Virus record (IMG/VR): IMGVR_UViG_3300027908_000032
Location: 1-48,520 of that record
Direction: 5' to 3' (one strand)
From: a virus
DNA length: 48,520 bases
Shown: in pieces, positions 4,369 through 39,660 of the stretch
Layout of the letters: every line of letters starts with the position of its first letter
How positions within the stretch are numbered: the first letter of the stretch is position 1
Program-made: the position numbers and the translations under genes
Notes under the pieces: model-generated
The model's input: only the letters and a program-made list of their open reading frames with translations
Database searches by the model: none
Told to the model about the DNA's origin: nothing

Positions 4369-4647
4369 ATGTCACACGTTGAGATTGAAAGGCGAGTCAG
4401 CAAGGCTGCATATTCAGGGAAGGAACGGCGTTTGCCACCTAAGCCCGCGGTAGAAGCGAAGTGGTCAGGATTGGAGCGGCGCATGAAGGTTGGTGTCTCA
4501 CCGACAGGCAAAGAGCGTCGAGTGGCAAAGGCTGCCGCACCTCCAGTTCCAGCAGGGCTGCATTCCCAAGCTGTGTACAGCGGACCGGAACGGCGCAGAG
4601 CGGCTGGCGTTGGTCCAAACGGCGTAGAACGACGCAAGGTGCTCTAA
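4369..4647 (+). CDS. Repeat protein with GxERR motifs
   Basis: A 92-residue, strongly basic protein with a clear ribosome site (AAAGGAGA). It has six ERR tripeptides, five in the form G-x-E-R-R: YSGKERR, WSGLERR, PTGKERR, YSGPERR, PNGVERR. Regular spacing implies internal duplication. Single YSGPERR-type motifs occur in many bacterial signalling proteins, but an array in a phage head operon is unusual. Likely intrinsically disordered and nucleic-acid or partner binding. About 117 nt between 4252 and 4368 hold no convincing gene. Confidence 0.65.
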   Translation: MSHVEIERRVSKAAYSGKERRLPPKPAVEAKWSGLERRMKVGVSPTGKERRVAKAAAPPVPAGLHSQAVYSGPERRRAAGVGPNGVERRKVL

Positions 4648-22788: not shown

Positions 22789-25700
22789 ATGATTAAGAGA
22801 ATAGTCGTAGTAGTCTCCTTTCTGCTTGCCATGTTATGCCCATCTGCGGCTTTCGGGCAACAGCCCGTTTTCCGTCTGCAAGGAACAGTACAGACTCCTC
22901 TTGGCGCTGCGGTAGCCGGAGCGAATGTCGCCATCTGCTCGCAGCCAGCTACGTTGACTTCTCAGCCCTGCACTCCGCTTGCGACTCTGTACAACGCTCC
23001 TAGCACAAACACGACATCTCTAACCGGAGCTTCTTATGCGGTGCAACAGATTACCTTCGCGCTAGCCATAGTTCCTTCTGATGTTGTGGCAGGCTCTTAC
23101 ATTTCCATCACGGGAGCAAGCCCGTCTGGATATAACGGAGTATGGCTCGTAGCTTCCGTCTCAGGTCTGAACGTGACGATTGCCAGCGTGTTCTCTAATC
23201 CCGGCAGCTACATAACAGGGGGAACGGTAACAACGAGCGCCCTGCCCAACCCCGTACAGACGAACGGCAACGGGTATTTTTACGCATACGTGGCATCAAA
23301 TCCGTACACCGTTCAAGTCTATTCTTCTACCATTCAGACGCTGGTTTACGCAGACCAGTACCCGTTAGGCGGAGGTGGTGGAGGTGGCGGGACTCCGGGT
23401 GGCGTTGATACCAACGTGCAAGTTAACGGCTCTGGAGTTTTCATCGGACCTTCAGGTCTTATTTATACTTACGGTGCGACTCCTCCAGTTTTTTCAATAC
23501 CGGGAAACCTGCAAGTCAAAAGCGGACAGCCGTGGTACGACGTAACAGCGTGGGGAGCGAAGGGCGACGGCGTTACGGATGACACGGCTGCAATCACTGC
23601 AGCCTACACCCAAGCAGCTTCGGACTTGCACGCTGCTGGTTTTGGTGGTGGCGGTACTGTCTATTTCCCGCATTCATCGGGATGCTACAAGTTTTCTACA
23701 CTCACGATTCCGAGCGGGTCAGCGAATGGTGGATGGATAGTCTCGTTATTTGACAATGGAATTTGCGGCAGCACGATTTATCCCGGCAATTATACGTCTT
23801 TCATCGGACGTTCCGGTAGCTTCCAAGGGCTAGGAGGAGCTTTCGGATACGCCAATTACACTACCTGGACCAATCTAGTGGACCAATCGGCTCCACTGGT
23901 GGATTTGTTTGGTGTAGGAACTGTATACTTTGAAGGCATAAATATTGAATGTTACTCTTCTACAGAATGCGTTCACATGCACGACAACTCCGGTACTGGC
24001 ACCGTTGAAGTTACACTTAACAAATCACTCATAAATAATAACGTCTCATCCGGGTACGATGTTGTGGCAGACTCCTCCAGTTCCAGTCAGGTATCGGGAT
24101 TTGGTTTCCGCGCTGAATATACTTCGTTCAATGGGCCTCATACATTATCGTTCACTAATTTTGGCGAGGTCATCATCGAACACTCATTTATAGGCAGCGG
24201 TACTATCACCGCCATGAACATAGGCATTCCATCCAATGGAGATTTTGTATTTAACGACATCTTGTCCGAGGGTCTTACTAACAATGATTTTTTTGTTGCC
24301 AGTGGTTCGTATGTGAATGATTTTACCTTCCGCGATGTCAAAATAGCAGACCAGACAGGAACGGTATACCTATTCAACAATCAGACTACTGGTGGACCTA
24401 CGGGGCCAGTTCATTTCGATATGAATGTGACGCATGAGATAGGTAGTGGTCTGATGGACCCTGCTGGGTCTTATCCTTACGTGTTCTGCGAGGGTGCTCC
24501 TGCTAGCGGTAATGTCGGATGCCCACCTTGGACAGACACCCTCCAGCAACTTTCCCCTTCCTCTCCACCACCAAACCCTGGAGCTTCTCAAGATAGGCAG
24601 TGGTGGGATACTAGCGATAACTGGAGATGTATCACGCATGGCGGAACGGCCTGTGGCATCATCGTAGGTAGCGCAGTTGCGGCTAGCTTTGCTAATGCTT
24701 CATGGTCTACCTCTACTGGCCTTTGCACTGATACCAGTTCCCCGCCAAAAATAGTAACGGCAGGCTGCTCTCCCGGCGTAGCGAATCTAACGCCAGTACC
24801 AAGAGTGATAGTAAACGGTGCGAATAGCGGTACGTTGCTGACAACCACGGCAGGCCAATGCCCCGGAGGTTCAGGAAGCTCTGCCAGCTACCTCTACGCA
24901 GCCTCAGACTTCTCCTGCATCGTGACACGCGGAGCATCAACGGCAATGACGGACACGTTGCCGCAAGCAGGGAGCGCGGGATTTGCAAGCAATTTCTACC
25001 TCAGTATCTCAAATACGGGGACAGCTTTAGACACTATCACCACGACCATTAGTACTTTCACCTGCGTTGATAATTCACCTTACTGCTCCGGTTCAACGCT
25101 CAAGATTCCCGCAGGAAAGCTCGCTACAATCTGGTCGCCCGACAACGCCAACTGGAACGTAGCAATGGGCGGAGCCATCGGCACGCAAGACTATAGCCCG
25201 AACTCCTACGCAATAGGCGGTGGAACGGCTAACGTGCAGACGGTTACTCTTCCCGTGGCTCCGACCGCTTATATGCAAGGGATGCGCGTCTGCTGGTTGC
25301 CTTCAAATGCCAATACTAGTGCTGCAACTCTAAACGTAAATGGCCTAGGAGCTTTCCAGATTGAAAAGCAAACAATCGGCGGTGTCACTCTCATAACTTC
25401 GGGAGATTTGAGTACTACGGTGCAAGCATGCGCCGATTATATCGGCACCCACTTTCAACTTGAAAATCCACAATCTGTTTACAGTGGTTCAGCATCTTCC
25501 ATCTTCCTTAATTTCGGTGTTCCAGCTGGCGGGAGCGTGGCAGTTGTAGCAAACCAGCAATTGGCTGCCCAAATCTCTACCGTGGCCCAGATTTCATTCG
25601 GTCATATCGCCTGGGATATTACCACGCTTGATGCTACAGGTGGCGACCTATACGACATCGGAGTTTACACCGCAAACGGAGTTTTGGTCTGCGACATTGG

Positions 25701-25968
25701 CCCTACGGCCATGACTTCAACGGGAGTTCAGACGGCGGCGTGTGTTCAGGGTTCCGTACTGCTGCCCGCAGGGAATTATTACATCTGCACGACAGGCAAT
25801 GCAGGAACCGCGAAGTTTGGCATCATGAACAACTCATCAAGCACCAGCGTTATTTCAATCACAGCGAATATTGGAACGACCAGCGGTGGGCAATTGCTTT
25901 CTTCGTTTATCGGTGTCTCACCGTCCCCTGCTCTAACAAGCGTTCCTTGGGCAGCTTTGTATCCATAA
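22789..25968 (+). CDS. Secreted tail-fibre-like protein with pectate-lyase-fold domain
   Basis: A 1059-residue protein from ATG 22789; an upstream in-frame ATG at 22735 adds 18 polar residues. The N-terminus MIKRIVVVVSFLLAMLCPSA then AFG is a textbook signal peptide. An Ig-like module (about 75-150, ISITGASPSGYNGVWLV) is followed by a Gly hinge and, from about 250, VTAWGAKGDGVTDDTAAI, the start of a pectate-lyase right-handed beta-helix to about 520. The C-terminal 400 residues contain fibre-type beta domains. The lyase fold suits a glycan depolymerase or receptor-binding fibre. A signal peptide is abnormal for a virion protein. Confidence 0.8.
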   Translation: MIKRIVVVVSFLLAMLCPSAAFGQQPVFRLQGTVQTPLGAAVAGANVAICSQPATLTSQPCTPLATLYNAPSTNTTSLTGASYAVQQITFALAIVPSDVVAGSYISITGASPSGYNGVWLVASVSGLNVTIASVFSNPGSYITGGTVTTSALPNPVQTNGNGYFYAYVASNPYTVQVYSSTIQTLVYADQYPLGGGGGGGGTPGGVDTNVQVNGSGVFIGPSGLIYTYGATPPVFSIPGNLQVKSGQPWYDVTAWGAKGDGVTDDTAAITAAYTQAASDLHAAGFGGGGTVYFPHSSGCYKFSTLTIPSGSANGGWIVSLFDNGICGSTIYPGNYTSFIGRSGSFQGLGGAFGYANYTTWTNLVDQSAPLVDLFGVGTVYFEGINIECYSSTECVHMHDNSGTGTVEVTLNKSLINNNVSSGYDVVADSSSSSQVSGFGFRAEYTSFNGPHTLSFTNFGEVIIEHSFIGSGTITAMNIGIPSNGDFVFNDILSEGLTNNDFFVASGSYVNDFTFRDVKIADQTGTVYLFNNQTTGGPTGPVHFDMNVTHEIGSGLMDPAGSYPYVFCEGAPASGNVGCPPWTDTLQQLSPSSPPPNPGASQDRQWWDTSDNWRCITHGGTACGIIVGSAVAASFANASWSTSTGLCTDTSSPPKIVTAGCSPGVANLTPVPRVIVNGANSGTLLTTTAGQCPGGSGSSASYLYAASDFSCIVTRGASTAMTDTLPQAGSAGFASNFYLSISNTGTALDTITTTISTFTCVDNSPYCSGSTLKIPAGKLATIWSPDNANWNVAMGGAIGTQDYSPNSYAIGGGTANVQTVTLPVAPTAYMQGMRVCWLPSNANTSAATLNVNGLGAFQIEKQTIGGVTLITSGDLSTTVQACADYIGTHFQLENPQSVYSGSASSIFLNFGVPAGGSVAVVANQQLAAQISTVAQISFGHIAWDITTLDATGGDLYDIGVYTANGVLVCDIGPTAMTSTGVQTAACVQGSVLLPAGNYYICTTGNAGTAKFGIMNNSSSTSVISITANIGTTSGGQLLSSFIGVSPSPALTSVPWAALYP

Positions 25969-25981
25969 ATTAGGAGGCTCG

Positions 25982-28294
25982 ATGCACAAAAGACACTTAA
26001 TCCTGCTCACCTTTCTGCTGCTGGTAGGCGGATGGCGTGCGCAGGGGCAGAACATCACGGCGGCAGGCTCAAGCTGCACGACGGCAGGGGCTTGCGCAGT
26101 AATTCAACTCAGCACCACAAATACCGGAAGCGTGACGTTCACTATCTCTGGAACCTTTTCGGCTACGCTACAATTTGAAGTCCTTGCAGACGGCACGGAA
26201 GCTAACAAATCCTCGGTGAACTGCGTTCCGCCTAACTCTACCACTGCGGTTACGAGCACGACGGCAGCAGGGACGTGGACGTGCAACGTACCGGGAGCGC
26301 AAGTCTTCAGGGTGCGCTGCTCGGCTTACACTAGCGGCACGGCAGTGGTGGCACTGAACGCATCGAATGCTATCGACACGGCGCTATTGGGTAGCGGTGG
26401 GGGCGGAGGCGGCAGCGGAACAGTAACCAGCGTGACCTTCACCGGAGATGGCGCCGTTCTGAGCGCAACGCCATCCTCGGCAGTTACGACCAGTGGCACG
26501 CTAACCGCTACGCTTGCCAATCAAACAGCCAATACGGTCCTGGGGGCGTTAACGGCCACAACGCCCTCAGACCTAGCGCTCCCATCATGCAGCGCGACCA
26601 CTAGTGCCTTAATTTGGACATCTGGCACCGGGTTTGGCTGCCACACGATAACTCCGGGGACAGGCACCGTTACAAGCGTGACTTTTACTGGTGACGGAAT
26701 CATCGACAGTTCGACGCCCTCAACGGCAGTTACCACCTCAGGAACTGTGGCCGCTACTCCTCTAACGCAAACTGCAAACACCGTGTTAGCTGGCCCTGCA
26801 TCGGGTTCTGCTGCGAACCCCGCTTTCCGGGCGCTAGTATCCTTGGATGTTCCAGATAACGCGGCGAATACGAGCGGTACGGCAGCCAATGTTACCGGCA
26901 TAGTGGCGGCTGCCAACGGTGGTACCGGAGTTGCAAATACAGCTACGCAGACGCTGGGAACCTCGAATATAAATTACGCAACGCAGGCCACTGGATTTGA
27001 TTATGTGACGACAACGACCGGAGCGCACGCAGCGGCCACGGCTGCTCAGGCTGCGACGCTCATTCAAGGACTGACAGGATGCAACACGGCTAACTTTGTG
27101 TTCACTCCGCAGGCAAGCGATTGCGTGGCCCAGAGTGGAAGTGGACTCTCGGGAATGACGGCTGGGCAGGTAGCAATCGCCGCCACCGCGAGCACAGTTA
27201 CATCTTCCAAGGCAATCGTGGGTACAGATACAGGCTTGGCGAGCGCCGCAACGATTTCGACCACAGCGGGCACCATCACTTGCTCCACGGCAAACGGCGG
27301 AGTCACTACGACCGGATGTCCTGCATCTCTGCCTGCGGTGACGAACACAACGGCAGTTACAGTCAGCAATCCGACCGCAGCGACAGACACGATTTTGATG
27401 GCGCTCTCCCTGCCCGCTGGATACTTGAACGTGGTAGGGCAGCCATTTATTGTTCATGGTTCGGGAGTACTCACGACAACGACGGCAAGCGTTCCGCAGG
27501 TAACGATTACTCCGAAGCTCTGCTCTGTAGCCGGATGTGCTACAGGAACTGTCACGCCACTGGCCGCTATTCAGTCAGCAGCATTGAATAGCGTAGCGAT
27601 TTCTAATGCTACTTGGGCCATTGATTTGACTATGACTGTTGTGGCGAACGGGTCAAGCTGCAACCTGATTGTGAAAGGTTCTCCGGGCCTCATAATTGAG
27701 GCAGGAGCCAGCGTAGCCACTGCCGATAGCGTCTATGCAGACGCCAACACTGCCGTTTCATCCCCCAATCAGAATTGCGCGAATGCCCTATTTCTGGATT
27801 TCTTCGTGCAGCAATCGACTACAGGCGCGTCCAACTCTTATAAGCAGCTTGAGGCTGTGATTGCTCCACCGTCAGGCGTAGGGGGAAGCAGTGGTAGCGG
27901 AATAACCAGCGCGACGATGGGCGGTAGCAGTTCCGCCATTGTTTGGTCAACTTCACAGCAAATTAGAAATATTTACGGGGGACCACAGGCCACCAATACC
28001 ACGGTAGCCATTGACGAAGTTCCGCAGGGACGCGCGAAAACTATCATAGGAATTCAATGGGCGCTGAGCGCAGCGCAGGCTAGCGCGACTACTAACCTGA
28101 CATTCACCTTCGTGGATGCTACGGCCAGCACTAGCGCAGTCTGTCAAGTTACTACCAATGTTACTACCACAACCACTTGTTCCTCGGTAGTCTCTCTTTC
28201 CGTTGCTCAAGGCGATTTATGCTACGTGGAATTTGCCCTAGGTGGTGGCACGGGCACATCAGCCGCTTTAGGGTGGGAGATTACCTACCAATGA
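25982..28294 (+). CDS. Secreted tail-fibre repeat protein
   Basis: A 770-residue protein with strong ribosome site AGGAGG. Signal peptide MHKRHLILLTFLLLVGGWRA (about 22 residues). Residues 140-330 contain canonical phage tail-fibre repeats: GTVTSVTFTGDGAVLSATPS and GTVTSVTFTGDGIIDSSTPS, each followed by TSGT and QTANTVL. A Gly-rich hinge (GSGGGGGGSGT) precedes them. The C-terminus has further beta-sandwich domains (MGGSSSAIVWSTSQQIRN). Repeats argue for a virion fibre; the leader argues for export. The stop overlaps the next ATG. Confidence 0.78.
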   Translation: MHKRHLILLTFLLLVGGWRAQGQNITAAGSSCTTAGACAVIQLSTTNTGSVTFTISGTFSATLQFEVLADGTEANKSSVNCVPPNSTTAVTSTTAAGTWTCNVPGAQVFRVRCSAYTSGTAVVALNASNAIDTALLGSGGGGGGSGTVTSVTFTGDGAVLSATPSSAVTTSGTLTATLANQTANTVLGALTATTPSDLALPSCSATTSALIWTSGTGFGCHTITPGTGTVTSVTFTGDGIIDSSTPSTAVTTSGTVAATPLTQTANTVLAGPASGSAANPAFRALVSLDVPDNAANTSGTAANVTGIVAAANGGTGVANTATQTLGTSNINYATQATGFDYVTTTTGAHAAATAAQAATLIQGLTGCNTANFVFTPQASDCVAQSGSGLSGMTAGQVAIAATASTVTSSKAIVGTDTGLASAATISTTAGTITCSTANGGVTTTGCPASLPAVTNTTAVTVSNPTAATDTILMALSLPAGYLNVVGQPFIVHGSGVLTTTTASVPQVTITPKLCSVAGCATGTVTPLAAIQSAALNSVAISNATWAIDLTMTVVANGSSCNLIVKGSPGLIIEAGASVATADSVYADANTAVSSPNQNCANALFLDFFVQQSTTGASNSYKQLEAVIAPPSGVGGSSGSGITSATMGGSSSAIVWSTSQQIRNIYGGPQATNTTVAIDEVPQGRAKTIIGIQWALSAAQASATTNLTFTFVDATASTSAVCQVTTNVTTTTTCSSVVSLSVAQGDLCYVEFALGGGTGTSAALGWEITYQ

Positions 28295-29073
28295 GAATAG
28301 CTCTCTTAATTACAGCTTTATTTGTGGCGGCGCTTCCCGCACACGCGCAATCCTGCGTGAGTCTATCGCTGATGGGAGCAGTGTTTCCAGACCCGATGCC
28401 CCTTACCAATCCCATCACTAAAATACAGTTCCCCGTGCAGATAATAAATAATTGCTCGCAGACTGTTTACTACGGGAAAAGCACCTGGGCAGGATTGGAA
28501 AGTGCAGACGATACGTGGTGGTCTGCGAACGGTTGCACGACGCTTCTTCCCGCTGCGGTATGCTACGGCTACACCGGAGCGGCGGCAGACCCCGATGACC
28601 CGATGATTTGCCAGCCGCCCAACGCACCGAGTGAAAATTGGTGTGTTGATACGCTGACAACTATTTGGTGCTTTTCTAAACCGTGTCCGGGGAGTGCTGG
28701 CCCGACTGCCACGCTGACATTTCAGTGGACGGTGGACAATCCCAAGGTAGAAGGGGACGTGGAACCAGCCTCGCTGACCTTCACCGGGCCAGTAGGGGTG
28801 CGCACACCAGACCAGACCATCACGGGCAGCAACTCGGAAACTTGTGGGGCTGACTGCACGGGACTCGTCACCTTCGGGCAGGTGACTGTACCGCCCAACG
28901 TCTACATCGACGTGGACAATTGCTCCGGCCAGTCCGTCCCGCAGAGTCAAACCTGCACAGTCACGGTGTACGCCATCCCTGTTGTTGCAACACAAACATC
29001 GCCGGGGCCAATCAACATACCGAACAATCTGGGCAACAACGGACGCAGCAAGGTGTATACGACCATAAACTAA
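28291..29073 (+). CDS. Secreted Cys-rich protein
   Basis: A 260-residue protein from ATG 28291 (ATGA overlap). Signal peptide MRIALLITALFVAALPAHA with cleavage before QS. The mature part is beta-rich, with at least 14 Cys in pairs suited to disulphides (NGCTTLLPAAVCYGY, WCFSKPCPG, ETCGADCTG), consistent with folding in the periplasm or outside the cell. No enzymatic motif seen. Between two large secreted proteins, it may be an adaptor or chaperone for them. Confidence 0.65.
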   Translation: MRIALLITALFVAALPAHAQSCVSLSLMGAVFPDPMPLTNPITKIQFPVQIINNCSQTVYYGKSTWAGLESADDTWWSANGCTTLLPAAVCYGYTGAAADPDDPMICQPPNAPSENWCVDTLTTIWCFSKPCPGSAGPTATLTFQWTVDNPKVEGDVEPASLTFTGPVGVRTPDQTITGSNSETCGADCTGLVTFGQVTVPPNVYIDVDNCSGQSVPQSQTCTVTVYAIPVVATQTSPGPINIPNNLGNNGRSKVYTTIN

Positions 29074-32000
29074 TGAAACGACTTCTTATTATTCTTTTGT
29101 GGGCCTTTCCTGTCTTCGCGCAGAACACCATTCCCATCATCATCATGCCCGCCGAGGGTCCGTGGACCGCGCAGACTCTCGTAGGCGAGCGCCTGAACGC
29201 GCCGGTGACCTTCGGTGTGGGCATCCCGGATGCATGGAATATCGACTGCCCCGGCACGCAACTCCATCCTGAGAACGAGCAAGCGCCGACTAAGCTCATC
29301 CTGAAGTACGCAGGTACGCAGGTGACCTCGCAATTCCGCTGCATGGCCCACTGGCCGTCCGGCAACGCGGAATGGGTGCAGGTGGACTCGCAGCTGCCGT
29401 GCTTCAGCGAAGTGGGAAACGGGTCGTGCGCGGCGACATCTTCTCTCGCGGGAAACCTAAATTACGACCTGAACCTGACCATCTCGACTGTGTCGTCTGG
29501 TGGCGGGAACGTACTGTGCTCGCCGACCTGCACCACGAGTTTCACTCCGATGGCCGTAGACTCCAATCCAGGGTCACCGAATACAGGAACAATCACAGTC
29601 ACGACCGGGGCAGCCACATTCGTAATCCAGAAAGCCAACTTCGACGGCTACCACGACGCAGCAATCGGCGCACTCCATGAAATAGCAGGGAACAACCACG
29701 GCCCCTACGATGGCTTCACGCTCTACGGACCATCCGACTCGCTCATCCCGCCGACCGCATCCAGCCCCACCATCGCGGGAGTGTCCTGTGGTCCCGGCCC
29801 GGTGCCCACGAATTACACGGGCGCGGCCTGCACCACGCCCTATTCGTCGCAGAACGATTCTGCCTCTACCGCTATTATCGAGGAAAACGGACCCCTGCGA
29901 GCGGCCATCACAGCCAATTTCGATTTCAAGAACTCATCCGGGCATGCCTACTTTCACGGGCGCGTGCGCATGTTTTTCTGGCGCAACCGCACGGACTCCA
30001 AGACGGAAATAATCAACGAGAACGCCTACGTGCCGGTGGTCACTGGAGTCACTGGAGTGGGCTGCTATCCCAACGGCATCGCATCGTCATCCTGCTCGCC
30101 GACTGACCAGTGGAATGTGGCCTACAAGGAATTCAACCAAGAGGAAATGCGCGAGACCGATAACCTGTCAGGCGCCACGCGCGATTTCCAATTCGCAGAC
30201 GATGCCACCGGCACCACGGTCTCGGCTACCACAGGAACCATGTCCTCGGCGCAATCGGCGTATCTATTTCAAGGCTACTCCAACGATGGCGAGTGGTTTG
30301 ATTGGCCGGGTGGGACTCTTTGCGGAAGCGGCGTTACCGGGGCATCGTCGGTCGGCAACAGTTGTGTGGTCTCCTACATTTCGCGTTCCGGCTCCTCAAA
30401 CAACTGGCAGTACGCGCTCCTCGGCTATCAAGACACTGGGCCGACCGGCGCAGGCATCAAGCAAGGCGCGTCCACCGTATATCCCGTAGGATGGTCGGAT
30501 TTCGATGACGGCGCAAATGGAATCGAGACCGGCGTGTATCAGCTCGCGATGTACTGGCCGAAGTCGCTCGAATATCAGCCGGGGAACACATCAGCGGGAT
30601 GTGGGGGCGTGTCGCCTTTCTGCGGCAACAATAACGAAATCCGCATAGGCATCTGGCCGAACCAGCAACTGTGGAACACATCCGGTACACCATACGTGAC
30701 AAATCCCAGCTACGTTACGACGCAAGCGTCCGGGCCGTGCAAGGGGTCGTTTCCGTGTCAGGCGCAAATATCCTACGTCATCGGCTGGCCGCAGACGCAG
30801 ATTCACGACATCTACTGGAACTTCCACACGGGTACGCAATCGGCGGCGACGGCGCAGGCCAATTTTCTATATTTCCAGCATCGGCTCCTCGCCAAGCCTC
30901 AGTCCTCCACATATTGGAACTCCGTGGTCGATGCGACCTATTCCATTCCCGCGCTGTGGTATCCCATGCCAGACCCGGTGACCGAGGACACTTTCTACAA
31001 AGGCGCAGGCAGTACGGTATGCCCGAATGCCATCGGCTCGTGTTTGGGAGACGTGGGCGGCACTGGATTCGCCTACACCGGCAGCACGAACAAAATGACC
31101 ATCTGGAGGTATTTTGGGTGGATAGCCGGAGGCGGCTCACAGGGCAACCAGTTCGAGCAGCGCAATTCCTTCGACCTGCAATGGCTGCAACGCGGGTGCG
31201 CCGTTAGTGGGAGCGTGTGCGGGGCGGCGAGCACACTAGGCTCTCTCGCAGGACGCTTCATTTGGGTTGACCACTTTGACCGCATGCAGACCGAGAAGAC
31301 CTTGCCGCGGTCGAATACGGTGAATAAGTCTGGACCCAACGCGGGATTCCGGTCGATGTGCACGAGCGACCCGGAATGTAACAGCGCGGGACTGCAATTT
31401 TTCCTCTACGGCGACCCTCGCAGCGCATCATTGCCATCTAATTGGAACGGCGGCATGCAGAACTTCGGTGATGACGACGATGGTGGGGACCACAACGTGA
31501 TGTGGGGGCAATATCTCCACTACTTCCTGACCGGCGACGAGACCATCCGCGAGCAGTTAATGGAAGGATTCAAGGACCGCTTGCAGAATCCGTTCGTATC
31601 GTGGTTCAACGTGCAAGCCAACGCGCCGGGGAACACGTCTCCGGGGCATGGTCACGTGGGAGCAATACGCGCAGAGGGTCACATGTACTCTACTGCTGCG
31701 CGTGCGATGGACTTCGAGAATTCTATCAGCGACCCAGACGCCGACACATTAGCCACAATCACCGGAGGAAATTTCACCTCGCCGGGGCAGGTGGCTAACA
31801 ATGCCTGCACGTCGGTTGCGTACGGCTCTACCTCCAATACCTGCGCTACTGTGCTCGAAGGATTGCTACAGGACCTCGCGGTGTATCAAGTGCTGCCGCT
31901 AGTGAACGCTGGTTATCCTACGGGATTCACCGACTGGCTAACCACTAAGGCCGATTGCTTGACCAACACACCTCCGACAAACGGTTGCTCGCAGGGGCAA

Positions 32001-35000
32001 TCGCCCACTCGCGGATTCCCGATTACGTTGGCTTCGGGGGAGAACTGTAACTATGCGGCGTGGAAGGCCAGCACAGTTTCGACACCATCAAATTATTCCG
32101 TATCGCCCTACAACATCGCTGCCATCGTGGACTCCAATAATAACTTGGAACTGGTGCAAACCGCTGGTACTGCTGGAATGGGTACGCATCCTACCTGGTG
32201 CACCACGCCTATAAACTGCACGACAAACGACAATACGGTCGTGTGGCAGATGATTGGTCCCACCATCCCCCCGTGCAATACGGCTAGTGGAGGCGTCGGT
32301 GGGGGCGTAGGCTTCCGTCACCTTAGCGGATTCATGAACGGCGTGCATGTGAACGGCATATACGATGTCTGGACTGAGATGCGCAAGATTATGGGCCTAA
32401 ACTGGCATCTCATTGTCGGCCAACTCTCTGGAATGCCGCTCACGTCGGCGTCCTATAACACTGGGTGCGGAGTCCCTGGGAATCAGGGCTACCTGTGGGA
32501 CGGCTGCACCACACTCAACAATGCCACGGTGAGCGAAAAGGGCCTACTAGATAATATTTACGGCGACTGGCTCCAGATGGCACAGGAGAGCTGCGTCAAC
32601 ACGAATCCGCTGGGCGTGTACACCGCACGCGCGGGATGCAACTACGACCAATCTTTGGACTATATAAATTCCGCTCCCGGCTGCTTCGGCGGACAGAACT
32701 GCCTGCGCGTTTACCCAACCGGAGCATCGGCATGCGTCGTCGGCTGCGGCGGCGCGACCATGTTCCCTGCGATTGGCGGAGCGGGCCTGGTGACCAATGG
32801 CATCACCGACATCACCGGGGACAGCCATAATAACTATCAGTTCCCGTTCGAGAGTCAGGCCGCGAACAACGGTATTATCGGTCAGGAACTTGGCTCGCAC
32901 GAAATGAAAATGATTGAGCAGTTTATCCTGGCGAACAACAGCACGCGCACGGCTGGTTATGTCATCAAGGCTTCTCTGCCACAGTTGCTCGCGGTGCCCG
33001 GAGGACTAACGCTCACGAGCGGGACGAATTGTACCGCGCACACGACGTATATCGTAATCGGACCTACGACCACAGGGACATGCACTATCACATGGGCTAC
33101 GCCACCGGGACTGTCCTCGGTAAATGGAGTGAGTTACCGACTGAAATATTATCCGTGTCAGACTGGCGCGCTCACGATATACGGCAATGGGAGCGAATGC
33201 CCCACTGCGGGAAAGACCCTCGTGCCCACGCTGGGCTTTCGCTCGGACTGTGTGGTCAGCTCAGGATGTAACTCGCAACTGGCTATCGGAGGAACGCAGC
33301 CTGCTACTACGGTGAACTCTCTGAATAGCTATGTGCCTACGCCTGCAAATATCGGCTCCTTCGTGCTCAGTCCGGCTAGCAATGCCAACTGGAACAATGG
33401 CATGGACCTACCGGACTGTGGAAACGGGACGCCGACTACAGGTTCCGGCGCTTATCCCGCATGGGTACCTATTCAGGCCGCGCCGTTCGTACCTGGATGC
33501 AATTCGGCGGTACCTTCGGGAACCAGTTACACATTTGTAGGGCAGCCGAATACAACTTACACTTTCGCCAATTATGCGTTTCAGAATTCAGCGGCATCGC
33601 TAACGCCTGCCTCGCAAGCGTTCTTTTCCGCGGCGGTGGGTACATCCAGCGGAGACAGTCCCCGCTCTTTAACTCTGACAGCAGGTCCAAGCAATCTCAC
33701 CTCGCTGGTTATTTCAACCACGGGAGATTTCTCACAGACGAACACCTGCTCCGGCACGTTGACGGCGGGAGCAAATTGCACTATCAGCGTGACTTTCACG
33801 GCAACCGCTACGGGAACACGTACTGGCACGGTGGTAGCGACTTACACAGGTGGCTCGCTGAGTTCCACTCTCTCAGGATTCGGTTTGGCGGCAGGTGGTG
33901 TGATTATTATTCCGCCTAACCCTTGCGTGCTTTCACTGCCAGCTACAGCGAATGGGACTTGCACTTTTCAATCTCAGACCGTAGGACTCCCTAGCTCCGA
34001 TAGTCCTGAACCGGAAACCTTGTCGAACACTAGTGGAGCCGGACTTACGAGCATCGCCTGCTCCACTACTGGAGCGAATAGTTTGGACTTTACTCTTAGT
34101 GGAACGTGCGCCACGACCCTCTTGAACAACTCCACCTACAGCATCCCCACCACTTTTACTCCGGGTGGAATAGGCTCACGGACAGCCAATTTGAAAGTGA
34201 GCTACGGAGGGGGCGGAGGCCCGACCATTGGACCTCTCGCGGACTGCAATGAACCGACACTTGCAACTGCGCTTACCTCTGTCTCAGCCGACAACACGAC
34301 GGTTCTAGTGCCTTCTGGAACTTGCACTTGGACTTCTCCACTCATTTATAACCCGACCTTCACTACGTATGTCATCTTTGGCAACGGAGGCACTACAACT
34401 CTTAACGACGCGGTTATCCACAGTTCAGGCTCAATGTTTCAAATCCAAATACCAGTGGGAAAGACTTTCCGGCTTTCGGGAGCGACCATTCAGCCCTTGA
34501 GCACCAATCCAGCCAACTACCTGGACGATATGGTTTCCGTTCTAGGAACCTGCAATTCGAGCGGCTGTCCTAATTTCCGCCTAGACCACATGGTATTCAC
34601 TGGCTCTACTGGCTCCACTTGGAACTCCGGTTCCGGTTGGCAAATGGATGTCGCCGATGTATTCGGCGTAGCAGACCACAACACAGTCACCTACCCATCG
34701 GGCGGCGGTATCTTCGGAAACGTCAGCCACGCTTCGTATTTGGGAGTGGGCCAGTACGGGGATAACTCTTGGACGCAGCCGGATTCCTTGGGAACAGGCA
34801 ACGCTTTTTACTTCGAGGACAACACAATTACAGCCGGAGGCAGCGCCCCTCAGCCAGCCCTGATTGTAGATTGTGACCACAGCGCATTTGGAGCGCAGCA
34901 TGTCGGAGCTTGCCGCATGGCCCTACGCCATAACACACTCATCAGCGCAGGAGGCACGGTACACGGCACAGAGAGTGGAGGCAGGTCTCGCGGTGGCAGG

Positions 35001-36356
35001 CAGATAGAGATTTACGACAACCAATTCACCTGCAACACTACAGCGGGATGCTCGAACGGATTTCAGGCTCGCAGCGGAGTCGTTTACCAGTTCGGGAACA
35101 CTTATACCACCGGCGCCGGTTCATTTTTCAACGGGTTCCTGCAACTCGCAGAGTTTAGGCGTTGGGCCAATCTCGGCGGATGGGACACCTGCAACGGCGC
35201 GGGTCCGTGGGATAACAACGATGGCGTGGTATATGCCTCGGGGACCATTACGGCGACGTCCGGCTCTGGCGGGGCACACACTTTGGTTGTCACCGATACT
35301 TCGCAAAGCTGGACAACGAACCAGTGGGCACCGGGGAACGGTTCGTCCTACAGCATCGTTAACCTCACACTCGGGAATACCTACGGATGGGAAATCAGCA
35401 GTAGCACATCCAATTCGGTTAGCTCCACTCTCTACTCCCAGGATTCCTATAATAGCTGGCCCACCTTCAATGTCGGCGACCATTACCAAATCCTGAAAGC
35501 ATCCGTGTGTATCGACCAGCCATCGCGAAGCCTCAGCACGCTGCTTTCGGGAGCCACACCGCCTACTGGCTGGGTCAATGAAGTTTTGGACCCTTCCTAC
35601 GAGTGGAACGACACACTTTCTCCCGGCTCTATTATCAATTTTGGGTTGATGGGTTCGCAGACTCTGAGCTTGATTGCGAATCGTGACTGGTATCAGGAAA
35701 GCGCCACTTCGCAGACAGCAAACACTAGTCCGACTTCGCCATTCAATGGCACAAGCGGAACGGGCTGGGGTATCGGGGCCAATCGCCCAACAAGTTGCTC
35801 TCTTTCCGTGAGCTACTTTTCTACGAACGTTGGCTCGCAAGGAACTCTATATCAATGCCAGTCTGGGTCGTGGGTTTCTATCTACACGCCCTATACCTAT
35901 CCGCATCCGCTGACGACTAGCAGTGGAGGTTCAGTCTCGGCACCACTCGCAGGAACCGGACTAGGCGCTACTGTGACGCTCGCGCCATCCACCTATGCTT
36001 TCAATTCAACCGTAGCAGGCAGCGGAAATAGCAGCGACAGCCCTCAGACTTTTATCTTCACCAATGGCACGGCGGGAACGGTCACTCCGGGTACAGTGTC
36101 CTTGAGCAACGCGGTGGACTTCAACATCCAATCGAACGGATGCACGGCACCAGTAACGGCAGGAAATACTTGCCTCGTAACAGCGAACTTCGCGCCGGCC
36201 ATCACCGACATCGGCACGCTGACATCAACACTGAGCATTGCATTCACAGGAGCATCGGGAAGCCCGGTTACGGCGGCGCTATCGGGAGTCAGTACATCAC
36301 CCACGACCGTATTTCCAAACAATCCAATTACACCACTAGGAATCGCGGTACGATGA
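29073..36356 (+). CDS. Giant secreted multidomain protein: PcRGLX/YetA-like lyase plus beta-helix
   Basis: A 2427-residue protein; ATG 29073 overlaps the previous stop. Signal peptide MKRLLIILLWAFPVFAQN. Residues about 20-900 resemble the PcRGLX/YetA-like rhamnogalacturonan-lyase family: QFRCMAHWPSGNAEWVQVDS near the N-terminus, then GPLRAAITANF and YFHGRVRMFFWRNRTDSKTE, then HYFLTGDETIREQLMEGFKD. Residues about 1500-1605 and 1615-1715 are choice-of-anchor-D-like (TCSGTLTAGANCTISVTFTA). About 1720-2140 is a beta-helix (FRLDHMVFTG). About 2300-2412 is another anchor-D-like domain. Probably an exported polysaccharide-degrading adhesin. Family calls are from pattern memory. Confidence 0.72.
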   Translation: MKRLLIILLWAFPVFAQNTIPIIIMPAEGPWTAQTLVGERLNAPVTFGVGIPDAWNIDCPGTQLHPENEQAPTKLILKYAGTQVTSQFRCMAHWPSGNAEWVQVDSQLPCFSEVGNGSCAATSSLAGNLNYDLNLTISTVSSGGGNVLCSPTCTTSFTPMAVDSNPGSPNTGTITVTTGAATFVIQKANFDGYHDAAIGALHEIAGNNHGPYDGFTLYGPSDSLIPPTASSPTIAGVSCGPGPVPTNYTGAACTTPYSSQNDSASTAIIEENGPLRAAITANFDFKNSSGHAYFHGRVRMFFWRNRTDSKTEIINENAYVPVVTGVTGVGCYPNGIASSSCSPTDQWNVAYKEFNQEEMRETDNLSGATRDFQFADDATGTTVSATTGTMSSAQSAYLFQGYSNDGEWFDWPGGTLCGSGVTGASSVGNSCVVSYISRSGSSNNWQYALLGYQDTGPTGAGIKQGASTVYPVGWSDFDDGANGIETGVYQLAMYWPKSLEYQPGNTSAGCGGVSPFCGNNNEIRIGIWPNQQLWNTSGTPYVTNPSYVTTQASGPCKGSFPCQAQISYVIGWPQTQIHDIYWNFHTGTQSAATAQANFLYFQHRLLAKPQSSTYWNSVVDATYSIPALWYPMPDPVTEDTFYKGAGSTVCPNAIGSCLGDVGGTGFAYTGSTNKMTIWRYFGWIAGGGSQGNQFEQRNSFDLQWLQRGCAVSGSVCGAASTLGSLAGRFIWVDHFDRMQTEKTLPRSNTVNKSGPNAGFRSMCTSDPECNSAGLQFFLYGDPRSASLPSNWNGGMQNFGDDDDGGDHNVMWGQYLHYFLTGDETIREQLMEGFKDRLQNPFVSWFNVQANAPGNTSPGHGHVGAIRAEGHMYSTAARAMDFENSISDPDADTLATITGGNFTSPGQVANNACTSVAYGSTSNTCATVLEGLLQDLAVYQVLPLVNAGYPTGFTDWLTTKADCLTNTPPTNGCSQGQSPTRGFPITLASGENCNYAAWKASTVSTPSNYSVSPYNIAAIVDSNNNLELVQTAGTAGMGTHPTWCTTPINCTTNDNTVVWQMIGPTIPPCNTASGGVGGGVGFRHLSGFMNGVHVNGIYDVWTEMRKIMGLNWHLIVGQLSGMPLTSASYNTGCGVPGNQGYLWDGCTTLNNATVSEKGLLDNIYGDWLQMAQESCVNTNPLGVYTARAGCNYDQSLDYINSAPGCFGGQNCLRVYPTGASACVVGCGGATMFPAIGGAGLVTNGITDITGDSHNNYQFPFESQAANNGIIGQELGSHEMKMIEQFILANNSTRTAGYVIKASLPQLLAVPGGLTLTSGTNCTAHTTYIVIGPTTTGTCTITWATPPGLSSVNGVSYRLKYYPCQTGALTIYGNGSECPTAGKTLVPTLGFRSDCVVSSGCNSQLAIGGTQPATTVNSLNSYVPTPANIGSFVLSPASNANWNNGMDLPDCGNGTPTTGSGAYPAWVPIQAAPFVPGCNSAVPSGTSYTFVGQPNTTYTFANYAFQNSAASLTPASQAFFSAAVGTSSGDSPRSLTLTAGPSNLTSLVISTTGDFSQTNTCSGTLTAGANCTISVTFTATATGTRTGTVVATYTGGSLSSTLSGFGLAAGGVIIIPPNPCVLSLPATANGTCTFQSQTVGLPSSDSPEPETLSNTSGAGLTSIACSTTGANSLDFTLSGTCATTLLNNSTYSIPTTFTPGGIGSRTANLKVSYGGGGGPTIGPLADCNEPTLATALTSVSADNTTVLVPSGTCTWTSPLIYNPTFTTYVIFGNGGTTTLNDAVIHSSGSMFQIQIPVGKTFRLSGATIQPLSTNPANYLDDMVSVLGTCNSSGCPNFRLDHMVFTGSTGSTWNSGSGWQMDVADVFGVADHNTVTYPSGGGIFGNVSHASYLGVGQYGDNSWTQPDSLGTGNAFYFEDNTITAGGSAPQPALIVDCDHSAFGAQHVGACRMALRHNTLISAGGTVHGTESGGRSRGGRQIEIYDNQFTCNTTAGCSNGFQARSGVVYQFGNTYTTGAGSFFNGFLQLAEFRRWANLGGWDTCNGAGPWDNNDGVVYASGTITATSGSGGAHTLVVTDTSQSWTTNQWAPGNGSSYSIVNLTLGNTYGWEISSSTSNSVSSTLYSQDSYNSWPTFNVGDHYQILKASVCIDQPSRSLSTLLSGATPPTGWVNEVLDPSYEWNDTLSPGSIINFGLMGSQTLSLIANRDWYQESATSQTANTSPTSPFNGTSGTGWGIGANRPTSCSLSVSYFSTNVGSQGTLYQCQSGSWVSIYTPYTYPHPLTTSSGGSVSAPLAGTGLGATVTLAPSTYAFNSTVAGSGNSSDSPQTFIFTNGTAGTVTPGTVSLSNAVDFNIQSNGCTAPVTAGNTCLVTANFAPAITDIGTLTSTLSIAFTGASGSPVTAALSGVSTSPTTVFPNNPITPLGIAVR

Positions 36357-36367
36357 GAGGGAAAATC

Positions 36368-36784
36368 ATGAAACGCAGAATACTTGTAACGGTATTTGTT
36401 GTGGTCTTGGCGTTCATCGTAGGCGCAAAGGCTCAGAGCAGTGGCATCTGGTCTAACGCGGCTATCAACTTTCCGATTCAGGCGAGTGTGACGCCTGCCA
36501 GTTGCACTGCTCCGGTCACGGGAGTTACGAATTACTGTACTACGGGCACAGTGGGCATGCTCATATCTTGCAACGGAAGTCCGTATGTTGCCGGTGTAGT
36601 GTGCGGCGGCGCAGCGGGGGGAGTTTCCTCGGTCAGTGTGAACGGAGGGCCGCTTCAGACCGGAGCGGTACAGCTAAAGATTCCTTCGACAGCGACCTCT
36701 ACGGCGACAGTGCCGGGAGCTAGTTTCTCGCAGAACGGGGCATTGACGCTTACAGCACCAACGGTAACGACGGTTATTCAGTAG
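36368..36784 (+). CDS. Secreted beta-rich small protein
   Basis: A 138-residue protein; ATG 36368 follows GAGAGGGA. An in-frame ATG at 36353 overlapping the previous stop is an alternative start. Signal peptide MKRRILVTVFVVVLAFIVGA then KA, cleaved before QSS. The mature part has a Cys-containing beta region and a fibre-like tail (GGVSSVSVNGGPLQTGAVQL) resembling the end of tail-fibre repeats. Possibly a fibre tip or cap for the preceding secreted fibres. Confidence 0.65.
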   Translation: MKRRILVTVFVVVLAFIVGAKAQSSGIWSNAAINFPIQASVTPASCTAPVTGVTNYCTTGTVGMLISCNGSPYVAGVVCGGAAGGVSSVSVNGGPLQTGAVQLKIPSTATSTATVPGASFSQNGALTLTAPTVTTVIQ

Positions 36785-38114: not shown

Positions 38115-38732
38115 ATGAAACACGCACTCCGCTTGGCAGTACTTCTACTCTGTACGACACTTCCCGCATTCGCACAGACAGCTCTCAGCAACGCATCTAT
38201 CTCAGGCAGCTTCACAGGCTTCTCTGCTGGCAGCGGCGGATGGCAACCAGCAGTACTCGCTAGCGCCAGCTATCAGGTAACGCAGCGAGTGACCGGAGCC
38301 TACTGGGAGATTTCCGTTCCGTCCCTCTCTCGCAACTACAACCTTGGAGTCGGCACGTACACGCTGCCACTGTCTTCGATTCTCGGCAAGACAATTAGCT
38401 CCAAGCTCCTTTTTGACGCCTCGGCTATCCCTGTGGGATTCAGCGCCGGAGCTGGAGAAGTTGTGCAACTAGGAATCACCCATGCGGCGGGAATCGCTGG
38501 CGCTAGCTTTGGCATCCCTGTTAGTGAATCGACTACGCTGAACGTGCTGGAAATCTATGGCGTCTTTGGCGGCGGTCACGAGAGCGGCGTATTCTCGAAC
38601 ATTTCCTTAAGCTCTTTCACGATGGCAACTGGATTGACCGTGCATCTGGCTCCGCTCGGCGCTCAATTCAAGCATCGCTTTGTAGCAAAGAACAAGGCCC
38701 ATGTGAGACTCGGTAAGTGCGAGCAATGCTAA
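38115..38732 (+). CDS. Secreted beta-rich protein, possible outer-membrane or surface protein
   Basis: A 205-residue protein with signal peptide MKHALRLAVLLLCTTLPAFA then QTA. The mature part is built of alternating beta strands with Gly/Ser turns (SGSFTGFSAGSGGWQPAVLA, YQVTQRVTGAYWEISV), like small outer-membrane barrels or autotransported domains. The C-terminus is basic and ends in CEQC. Encoded after the lysis enzyme, it could alter the host surface (superinfection exclusion) or belong to the fibre set; not decided. Confidence 0.6.
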   Translation: MKHALRLAVLLLCTTLPAFAQTALSNASISGSFTGFSAGSGGWQPAVLASASYQVTQRVTGAYWEISVPSLSRNYNLGVGTYTLPLSSILGKTISSKLLFDASAIPVGFSAGAGEVVQLGITHAAGIAGASFGIPVSESTTLNVLEIYGVFGGGHESGVFSNISLSSFTMATGLTVHLAPLGAQFKHRFVAKNKAHVRLGKCEQC

Positions 38733-38915
38733 GTGTTCGACAAGCACATTACACTAACTAGCACGGACAGTTCCGTGAGCCTTCAGATTGTAGCAGGCAC
38801 GGAAGGGCTAAAGAGCCTGACAGTTGTAGCGGGCAGCAAGAGCCAGCAACTCACAGCGCAGAAACTAATCGACCTCGCAGCACCCGCACTGAAGGAGTAC
38901 ATGAATGGCGTTTAA
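38733..38915 (+). CDS. Small hypothetical protein
   Basis: A 60-residue protein from GTG 38733 directly after the previous stop; the ribosome site is weak, so coupling is likely. Beta-rich N-terminal half, helical C-terminal half (LIDLAAPALKEYMNGV). Overlaps the next gene by 11 nt. Not recognised. Confidence 0.5.
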   Translation: MFDKHITLTSTDSSVSLQIVAGTEGLKSLTVVAGSKSQQLTAQKLIDLAAPALKEYMNGV

Positions 38916-39660
38916 GACTGGAAAGAAAGCCCCCAAGTGGCATCCTAAAACGCTGATGCTATCGAAGTACACGCAGAAGGGCGGAGTCATGCTGCCGCCA
39001 CCCGAGAAAATTTATCTAGAATATAAAATACCCCCGGCAACAATCGGTATGGGCTTGAACGACCAGCTATCGGACTGCCTCGCAGCTTACGCAGCCCATC
39101 ACTTGCAAGTCATCACGGGGCATGTGGGAACAGCGGTATTCGCAGAGGACTCCGAGATTCAAGCATTCTACTCCGCATTCTCTGGCTACGTTCCGGGCGA
39201 CCCCTCGACCGACAATGGCGGATACTTCGTTGATATGTACAACTGCTGGCAGACGCGCGGACTCGCTGGATTCAAGATTGACGGATGGGCGCAGATTGAC
39301 ACGAAGGATTATGCCAAGCGCCAGATTGCCATTCGCCTGTTCCTCGGTTGCGGAGTCGGTGTGCAACTACCAGCATCGGCACAGACGGAGTTCGAGGCAG
39401 GGCAAGATTGGACGATGCAGCCCGGCGATGTACCCAAAGACGGCCATGCCATTCTAGAATCGGGGGAGGGCGCGAAGGGCCATAACTTTGCTACGTGGGG
39501 CAAGGGCGACCAGAAGGCCGATAATAACTGGGACTTACAATGCACCGACGAAGTGTACGTCCCTCTAACGAAGGCAGTCATCAGCGCAGCCAACGACGTA
39601 GCGCCTCAATCGCTAGACTACGATGCACTGGTTGCAGACCTAGCCGCACTGAAGGCGTAA
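38905..39660 (+). CDS. Papain-like cysteine peptidase candidate
   Basis: A 251-residue protein. NDQLSDCLAAYAAHHLQ (Gln54, Cys58) followed later by DGHAILESGEG (His181) and HNFATWGK (Asn194, Trp198-Gly199) reproduce the order Gln/Cys, His, and the Asn-x-Trp-Gly-like motif of C1-type peptidases, though Gln-Cys spacing is shorter than in papain. It could cleave peptide stems, process a virion protein, or act on host proteins. No signal peptide. The starting ribosome site is weak. Confidence 0.55.
   Translation: MAFKTGKKAPKWHPKTLMLSKYTQKGGVMLPPPEKIYLEYKIPPATIGMGLNDQLSDCLAAYAAHHLQVITGHVGTAVFAEDSEIQAFYSAFSGYVPGDPSTDNGGYFVDMYNCWQTRGLAGFKIDGWAQIDTKDYAKRQIAIRLFLGCGVGVQLPASAQTEFEAGQDWTMQPGDVPKDGHAILESGEGAKGHNFATWGKGDQKADNNWDLQCTDEVYVPLTKAVISAANDVAPQSLDYDALVADLAALKA

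Follow-up and report, generated by a model that had tools for sequence, protein, structure and literature searches.

The results of this analysis showed that an uncultured tailed phage, represented by a 48,520-bp virus record (IMGVR_UViG_3300027908_000032; the whole of this stretch is the window referred to below), encodes a 2427-residue modular protein, P0001, whose residues 1-1509 have been exchanged between phages. The protein appears to be a distant PcRGLX-like protein and to carry an export signal. Based on these results, it was hypothesised, with about even confidence, that P0001 is a Sec-exported protein which would act on host-envelope or matrix glycans through an interchangeable PcRGLX-like module. 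Its parts, which are supported to differing degrees, are listed below; G001 denotes a related phage.

29073..36356, + strand: P0001, 2427-aa modular protein, predicted exported (translation; homologue in G001)
29073..29120, + strand: predicted Sec signal peptide, residues 1-16 (MKRLLIILLWAFPVFA, predicted cleavage before Q17; sequence, N-terminus scan)
29187..30905, + strand: PcRGLX/YetA-like domains 1 and 2, residues 39-611 (hhalign, HMM ranking, motif; PF21345 in G001)
30906..33002, + strand: probable divergent alpha/alpha-toroid (PcRGLX domain 3-like), residues 612-1310 (weak hhalign match)
33003..33599, + strand: putative linker or Fn3/Ig-like region, residues 1311-1509, where the exchanged segment ends (sequence; divergence profile)
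33600..34220, + strand: two choice-of-anchor-D (ASH/HYDIN Ig-like) domains, residues 1510-1612 and 1613-1716 (NF012200)
34221..35492, + strand: probable right-handed beta-helix, residues 1717-2140, best supported to about 2020-2040 (low-confidence model)
35907..36353, + strand: weak C-terminal anchor-D-like domain, residues 2279-2427 (NF012200, 16.2 bits, below cut-off)

The initial annotation had described one 2427-residue gene behind a signal peptide, and both points were borne out. The ORF of 2427 codons has no internal stops and has a homologue in G001. Its ATG overlaps the upstream stop codon (TAATG) and its own stop codon overlaps the next ATG (ATGA), while the ATG of the G001 homologue likewise abuts or overlaps the upstream stop; given the overlap with the upstream stop, the start codon of P0001 is well placed. 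The N-terminus reads as a classical signal peptide, MKRLLIILLWAFPVFA followed by Q, in which n-, h- and c-regions and an AxA-Q type cleavage site were recognised by sequence and a heuristic scan, and it is conserved in G001. Export was predicted from these sequence features with a rule-based scan. P0001 is rich in Thr, Ser and Gly. No match was obtained in isolate phage or plasmid collections, nor in PHROGs or PDB sequence searches. One match among the genome contigs (L010) was rejected, being a 25-aa stretch matched by chance within an ORF that resembles acyl-CoA dehydrogenase.

The window contains a terminase gene (PF03237; PHROG terminase large subunit) and genes for a portal-like/head-tail adaptor protein, an SU10-type adaptor and tail proteins. 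Head and tail genes are followed by a block of large genes (22.8-36.8 kb) and then by a cell-wall hydrolase gene (PF07486) and an ERF gene. A clearly different relative, G001 (IMGVR_UViG_3300050821_001314; 49,153 bp), was found in IMG/VR and derives from another assembly; core proteins of the two phages are 90-100% identical. Because its contig begins and ends (start of L011, end of L013) with an exact direct repeat of 97 bp, G001 is probably a complete genome; its record is classed as linear, and the P0001 homologue spans the contig ends. Near-identical fragments of the window phage also occur in IMG/VR (G002, from 3300001471, and 3300002245), and G002 contains the N-terminal 683 residues of P0001 in an identical context. 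Two more distant relatives found by a capsid-protein scan, G299 and G300 (71% capsid identity), are fragments without P0001. Beyond G001 and the same-phage fragments, the architecture of P0001 was seen in no other viral record in searches of limited sensitivity, and literature searches returned no report of such phage proteins. The earlier impression that two potential polysaccharide-active modules in one exported phage polypeptide look new agrees with this outcome as regards the architecture, within the sensitivity of these searches.

The N-terminal module was compared with cellular PcRGLX-like proteins from Actinomycetota, comprising a canonical group, whose match to PcRGLX (PDB 5xq3) has an E-value near 1e-270, and a divergent one (L036-L042). 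Profile-profile alignment with hhalign matched the two phage sequences to the divergent group collinearly over phage residues 39-611 (probability 97.3, E 1.7e-11), with a score of 101 as compared to a maximum of 25 for reversed and column-shuffled controls. The divergent group in turn matched the canonical group with a probability of 99.5. With an HMM of the phage region, all of the top 27 ranks among 526 ORFs went to PcRGLX-type proteins; some of these ranks repeat one protein because several loci overlap. Besides, the first-domain motif of the phage proteins (HWPSGNAEW / RWPSGHAKW) resembles HWPDGSLKW of the canonical members. The homology of residues 39-611 to PcRGLX/YetA-like domains 1 and 2 is thus well supported, though distant, and the divergent actinobacterial proteins, themselves homologous to canonical PcRGLX, appear to be its closest cellular relatives found. 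These actinobacterial proteins retain the toroid motifs described below and carry other C-terminal repeats instead of the anchor-D and beta-helix modules. As a separate observation, L036-L042 are exported PcRGLX-like proteins joined to WYFAEG(C/T)T-type repeats and are apparently poorly covered by Pfam models.

The initial annotation had placed a PcRGLX/YetA-like lyase module at residues 20-900; while the homology held for residues 39-611, the word lyase and the extent did not. The region of ca. 612-1310 gave a short, weak hhalign match to the toroid (E 0.0016, probability 16; none of 60 shuffles was as good), which suggests a module nearer 1300 residues in length. Two toroid motifs, D[YF]G[DE] and RHxxxxDxxH, each missing from only one of the distinct full-length cellular proteins examined, were absent from both phage proteins. 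Comparison with PF19501-type families and CAZy PL26 had also been proposed. No Pfam PcRGLX model matched P0001 of the window, PF19501 matched neither phage, and PF21345 was found in the G001 homologue only, at 11.8 bits against a cut-off of 23.5 (E 0.12 with Pfam, 0.002 when searched per genome); the curated cut-offs of the Pfam PcRGLX domain models were reached by neither phage protein. Since the toroid is only weakly supported and its motifs are missing, P0001 was not filed under PL26; neither PL26 membership nor lyase activity is supported, and we regard P0001 as a distant PcRGLX-like protein on sequence grounds. What it shares with the PcRGLX/YetA-like family (PF19501, PF21345, PF21346; PL26; 5xq3) is the order and profile similarity of two N-terminal beta-sandwich domains and a W-P-x-G-x-x-x-W motif, followed in matching order by LTG and, in the window protein, NWHL blocks. 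It differs in falling below every Pfam cut-off tested, in the two lost motifs, in large insertions (about 1300 aa as compared to 850-900), in its fusion to anchor-D and beta-helix modules and in being phage-encoded. Canonical and divergent PcRGLX proteins had no match in isolate phages, and a pattern search of IMG/VR, of limited sensitivity, found none.

Structure prediction by domain, which had been proposed earlier, was carried out with AF2 on residues 30-1229 and 1330-2427 and gave low confidence for both. For residues 30-1229 the alignment was too shallow (pLDDT 27), and Foldseek found no matches to that model. For residues 1330-2427, pLDDT was 30.7 overall, again with a shallow alignment, and 40-53 over about 1719-2020, where the model has short, regular strands after a cap helix, the pattern expected of a beta-helix. 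About 45 of the 50 PDB matches listed by Foldseek for this model were beta-helix or beta-solenoid proteins, nearly all right-handed beta-helix enzymes and tailspikes, and none was significant (best E 0.22); a viral structure library gave nothing interpretable. Residues 1717-2140 had no Pfam match and no meaningful PDB sequence match. The previously proposed beta-helix at 1720-2140 is therefore plausible from the low-confidence model and its fold matches, without a family match or a significant hit, and residues 1717-2140 likely form a right-handed beta-helix. Among the weak, non-significant Foldseek matches was WceF of Pantoea stewartii (6tgf), a bacterial tailspike-like glycan-modifying enzyme. 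WceF is secreted, and its tailspike-like beta-helix, which acts on a biofilm glycan, would correspond to the probable beta-helix of P0001; it differs in being a bacterial, single-module protein without a PcRGLX-like part. The anchor-D domains fared unequally. The proposed pair was confirmed by NF012200, which scored 62.5 bits over two stretches of residues 1510-1716 (curated cut-off, 45) and 41.6 bits on the whole of P0001, while the terminal one scored below that cut-off, as listed above, and is 96% identical in G001.

Comparison of P0001 with its G001 homologue revealed a sharp boundary. Residues 1-1509 are 35-53% identical, and synonymous sites are near saturation (pS 0.63-0.79). Residues 1717-2427 are 96-98% identical, with dS 0.5-0.6 and dN/dS 0.02-0.05, a conservation similar to that of the scaffold, portal and terminase genes; the beta-helix region (1717-2140) is strongly conserved (dN/dS 0.02-0.04). 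The replaced stretch runs from ca. 26.65 kb to 33.6 kb and takes in the gene at 28291-29073. In the genes at 22789 and 25982, the first 225 residues, signal peptide included, are kept (92-100% identity to G001) and the rest has been swapped. These two genes thus show the pattern of tailspikes, a conserved N-terminal and a variable C-terminal part, and P0001 shows the reverse. Since the exchange resembles that of receptor-binding regions, the PcRGLX-like module may be the host- or substrate-specific part; the C-terminal beta-helix/anchor-D part, being conserved like core genes and unlike the exchanged N-terminal part, may have a fixed role.

A rule-based signal-peptide scan of ORFs of 90 aa or more on the coding strand matched only six genes, five of which are consecutive (22789-36784) with P0001 as the fourth; the sixth starts at 38115. 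The other members of the run are as follows.

22789..25968, + strand: tailspike-like protein, predicted exported, with a signal peptide and CarboxypepD-like and pectate-lyase regions (PF12708, scan)
25982..28294, + strand: fibre-like protein with repeats, predicted exported; residues 1-225 conserved, remainder swapped (scan, G001 comparison)
28291..29073, + strand: 260-aa protein, predicted exported (scan; no homologue found in G001)
36353..36784, + strand: 143-aa protein, predicted exported; start overlaps the P0001 stop (scan)

The last four genes of the block (25982-36784) are linked by overlapping stop and start codons, and the block lies downstream of the tail genes, which it adjoins, and precedes the cell-wall hydrolase gene. 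The protein at 22789 matched PF12708 above the cut-off, and a short part of it resembles proteins annotated as tail fibres; the domain after its signal peptide recurs in a tail-region protein of G300 that itself has no signal peptide. G300 also encodes, upstream of its terminase gene (L058:733-2709), a 650-aa signal-peptide protein whose C-terminus weakly matches a gp53-like tail-fibre domain. The beta-helices of P0001, 22789 and G300 showed no mutual sequence relationship. Signal peptides across a run of five genes are unusual for tail-fibre-type proteins. Because five consecutive genes carry them and G300 encodes an exported fibre-like protein, export signals on fibre-type proteins appear to characterise the lineage and not just a single gene. 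The earlier view of P0001 as a lone fusion protein had overlooked both this neighbourhood and the exchange of residues 1-1509, which together suggest a setting of the tail-fibre type, concerned with host interaction, and not a stand-alone fusion enzyme. The 205-aa signal-peptide protein at 38115-38732 had no family match; its sequence resembles a small outer-membrane beta-barrel, and it is possibly a surface or exclusion protein.

Phage proteins active on sugars are usually tailspikes, assembled within the cell. The favoured hypothesis, that P0001 is exported and acts on glycans, is supported by the signal peptide, the codon overlaps, the PcRGLX-like homology, the anchor-D domains, the exchange and the position ahead of the hydrolase gene. 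P0001 would be expressed late, and its signal peptide would carry it across the inner membrane. The PcRGLX/YetA-like module, exchanged between related phages, would contact, and possibly cleave, a polysaccharide whose identity varies between hosts; the anchor-D Ig-like domains may act as spacers, and the C-terminal part may serve one constant function, for instance as a binder of a conserved glycan or of a co-exported phage partner. In this way, P0001 would probably assist progeny phages in leaving host polysaccharide or in crossing it to reach cells. The missing toroid motifs and the low confidence of the structure models weigh against this hypothesis, as do the tail-fibre traits of 22789 and 25982, which mean that the set may be virion parts.

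If they are, P0001 would be part of a virion tailspike or tail fibre and the block a receptor-binding cassette, with N-terminal hydrophobic segments that stay uncleaved or serve an unusual assembly route. This explanation is possible but on the unlikely side. It accounts for the location downstream of the tail genes, the pectate-lyase domain and tail-fibre-like matches of 22789, the kept starts and swapped remainders of 22789 and 25982, the signal-less G300 copy of the 22789 domain and the gp53-like end of the exported G300 protein. However, five consecutive genes have canonical signal peptides, the conserved part of P0001 is C-terminal, and export would take P0001 away from virion assembly in the cytoplasm. 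Phage tailspike depolymerases with a pectate-lyase-like beta-helix do share with P0001 a probable beta-helix, proximity to tail genes and domain swapping, but P0001 has a signal peptide and an inverted order of variable and conserved parts, is much larger and contains a second sugar-enzyme-like module.

The lineage might instead export its whole tail-fibre-type set via Sec, the proteins joining the virion or coating the cell outside the cytoplasm. We consider this decidedly unlikely; to our knowledge, no such assembly route for tail-fibre-type proteins has been described in tailed phages. The signal peptides of the fibre-like and PcRGLX-like block in two phages, together with an exported fibre-like protein in a more distant relative, suggest that some tailed phages either secrete glycan-active proteins set-wise or put fibres together outside the cytoplasm.

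It is improbable that P0001 lacks catalysis altogether and serves as an adhesin or decoy whose two modules do nothing but bind glycans, for instance to tether phage products to the cell surface or to prevent superinfection. The lost toroid motifs, the several Ig-like domains and the Thr/Ser/Gly-rich composition would fit, but motif loss may simply reflect another substrate, and the beta-helix part is strongly conserved. A secreted auxiliary enzyme that degrades environmental pectin-type polymers (rhamnogalacturonan) for the nutrition of the infected host is highly improbable: P0001 has a PcRGLX-like fold and PcRGLX (5xq3) is an established rhamnogalacturonan exolyase, but the family's toroid motifs are missing, the module is exchanged in the manner of receptor-binding regions, the gene sits in a tail-fibre-type block and the module is fused to a second one under strong purifying selection. 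An origin of the gene by misassembly or by fusion of phage and host DNA, which the lack of matches in isolate phage and plasmid collections might suggest, was rejected as next to impossible, as independent records contain the same N-terminal 683 residues in the same context (G002) and the same full architecture (G001, from another assembly), and the C-terminal part is under strong purifying selection.

The analysis also places a PcRGLX-type fold, which was found in none of the other viral records searched, in an exchangeable phage module, and such modules could yield new depolymerases.

Three other genes of the window deserve mention. Directly after the major capsid gene, an Endonuclease VII gene (PF02945; 11060-11527) encodes a protein 43% identical to that of G001, as compared to 95-100% for the adjoining genes; given this low identity, it is probably a mobile endonuclease. 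A 92-aa protein (4369-4647) consists of repeated GxERR-type motifs (GKERR, SGLERR, SGPERR, GVERR) and had no family match. Finally, a 251-aa protein (38905-39660) belongs to PHROG 19005 (unknown function) and has a Cys...GHA arrangement, which suggests a papain-like or C39-like peptidase.
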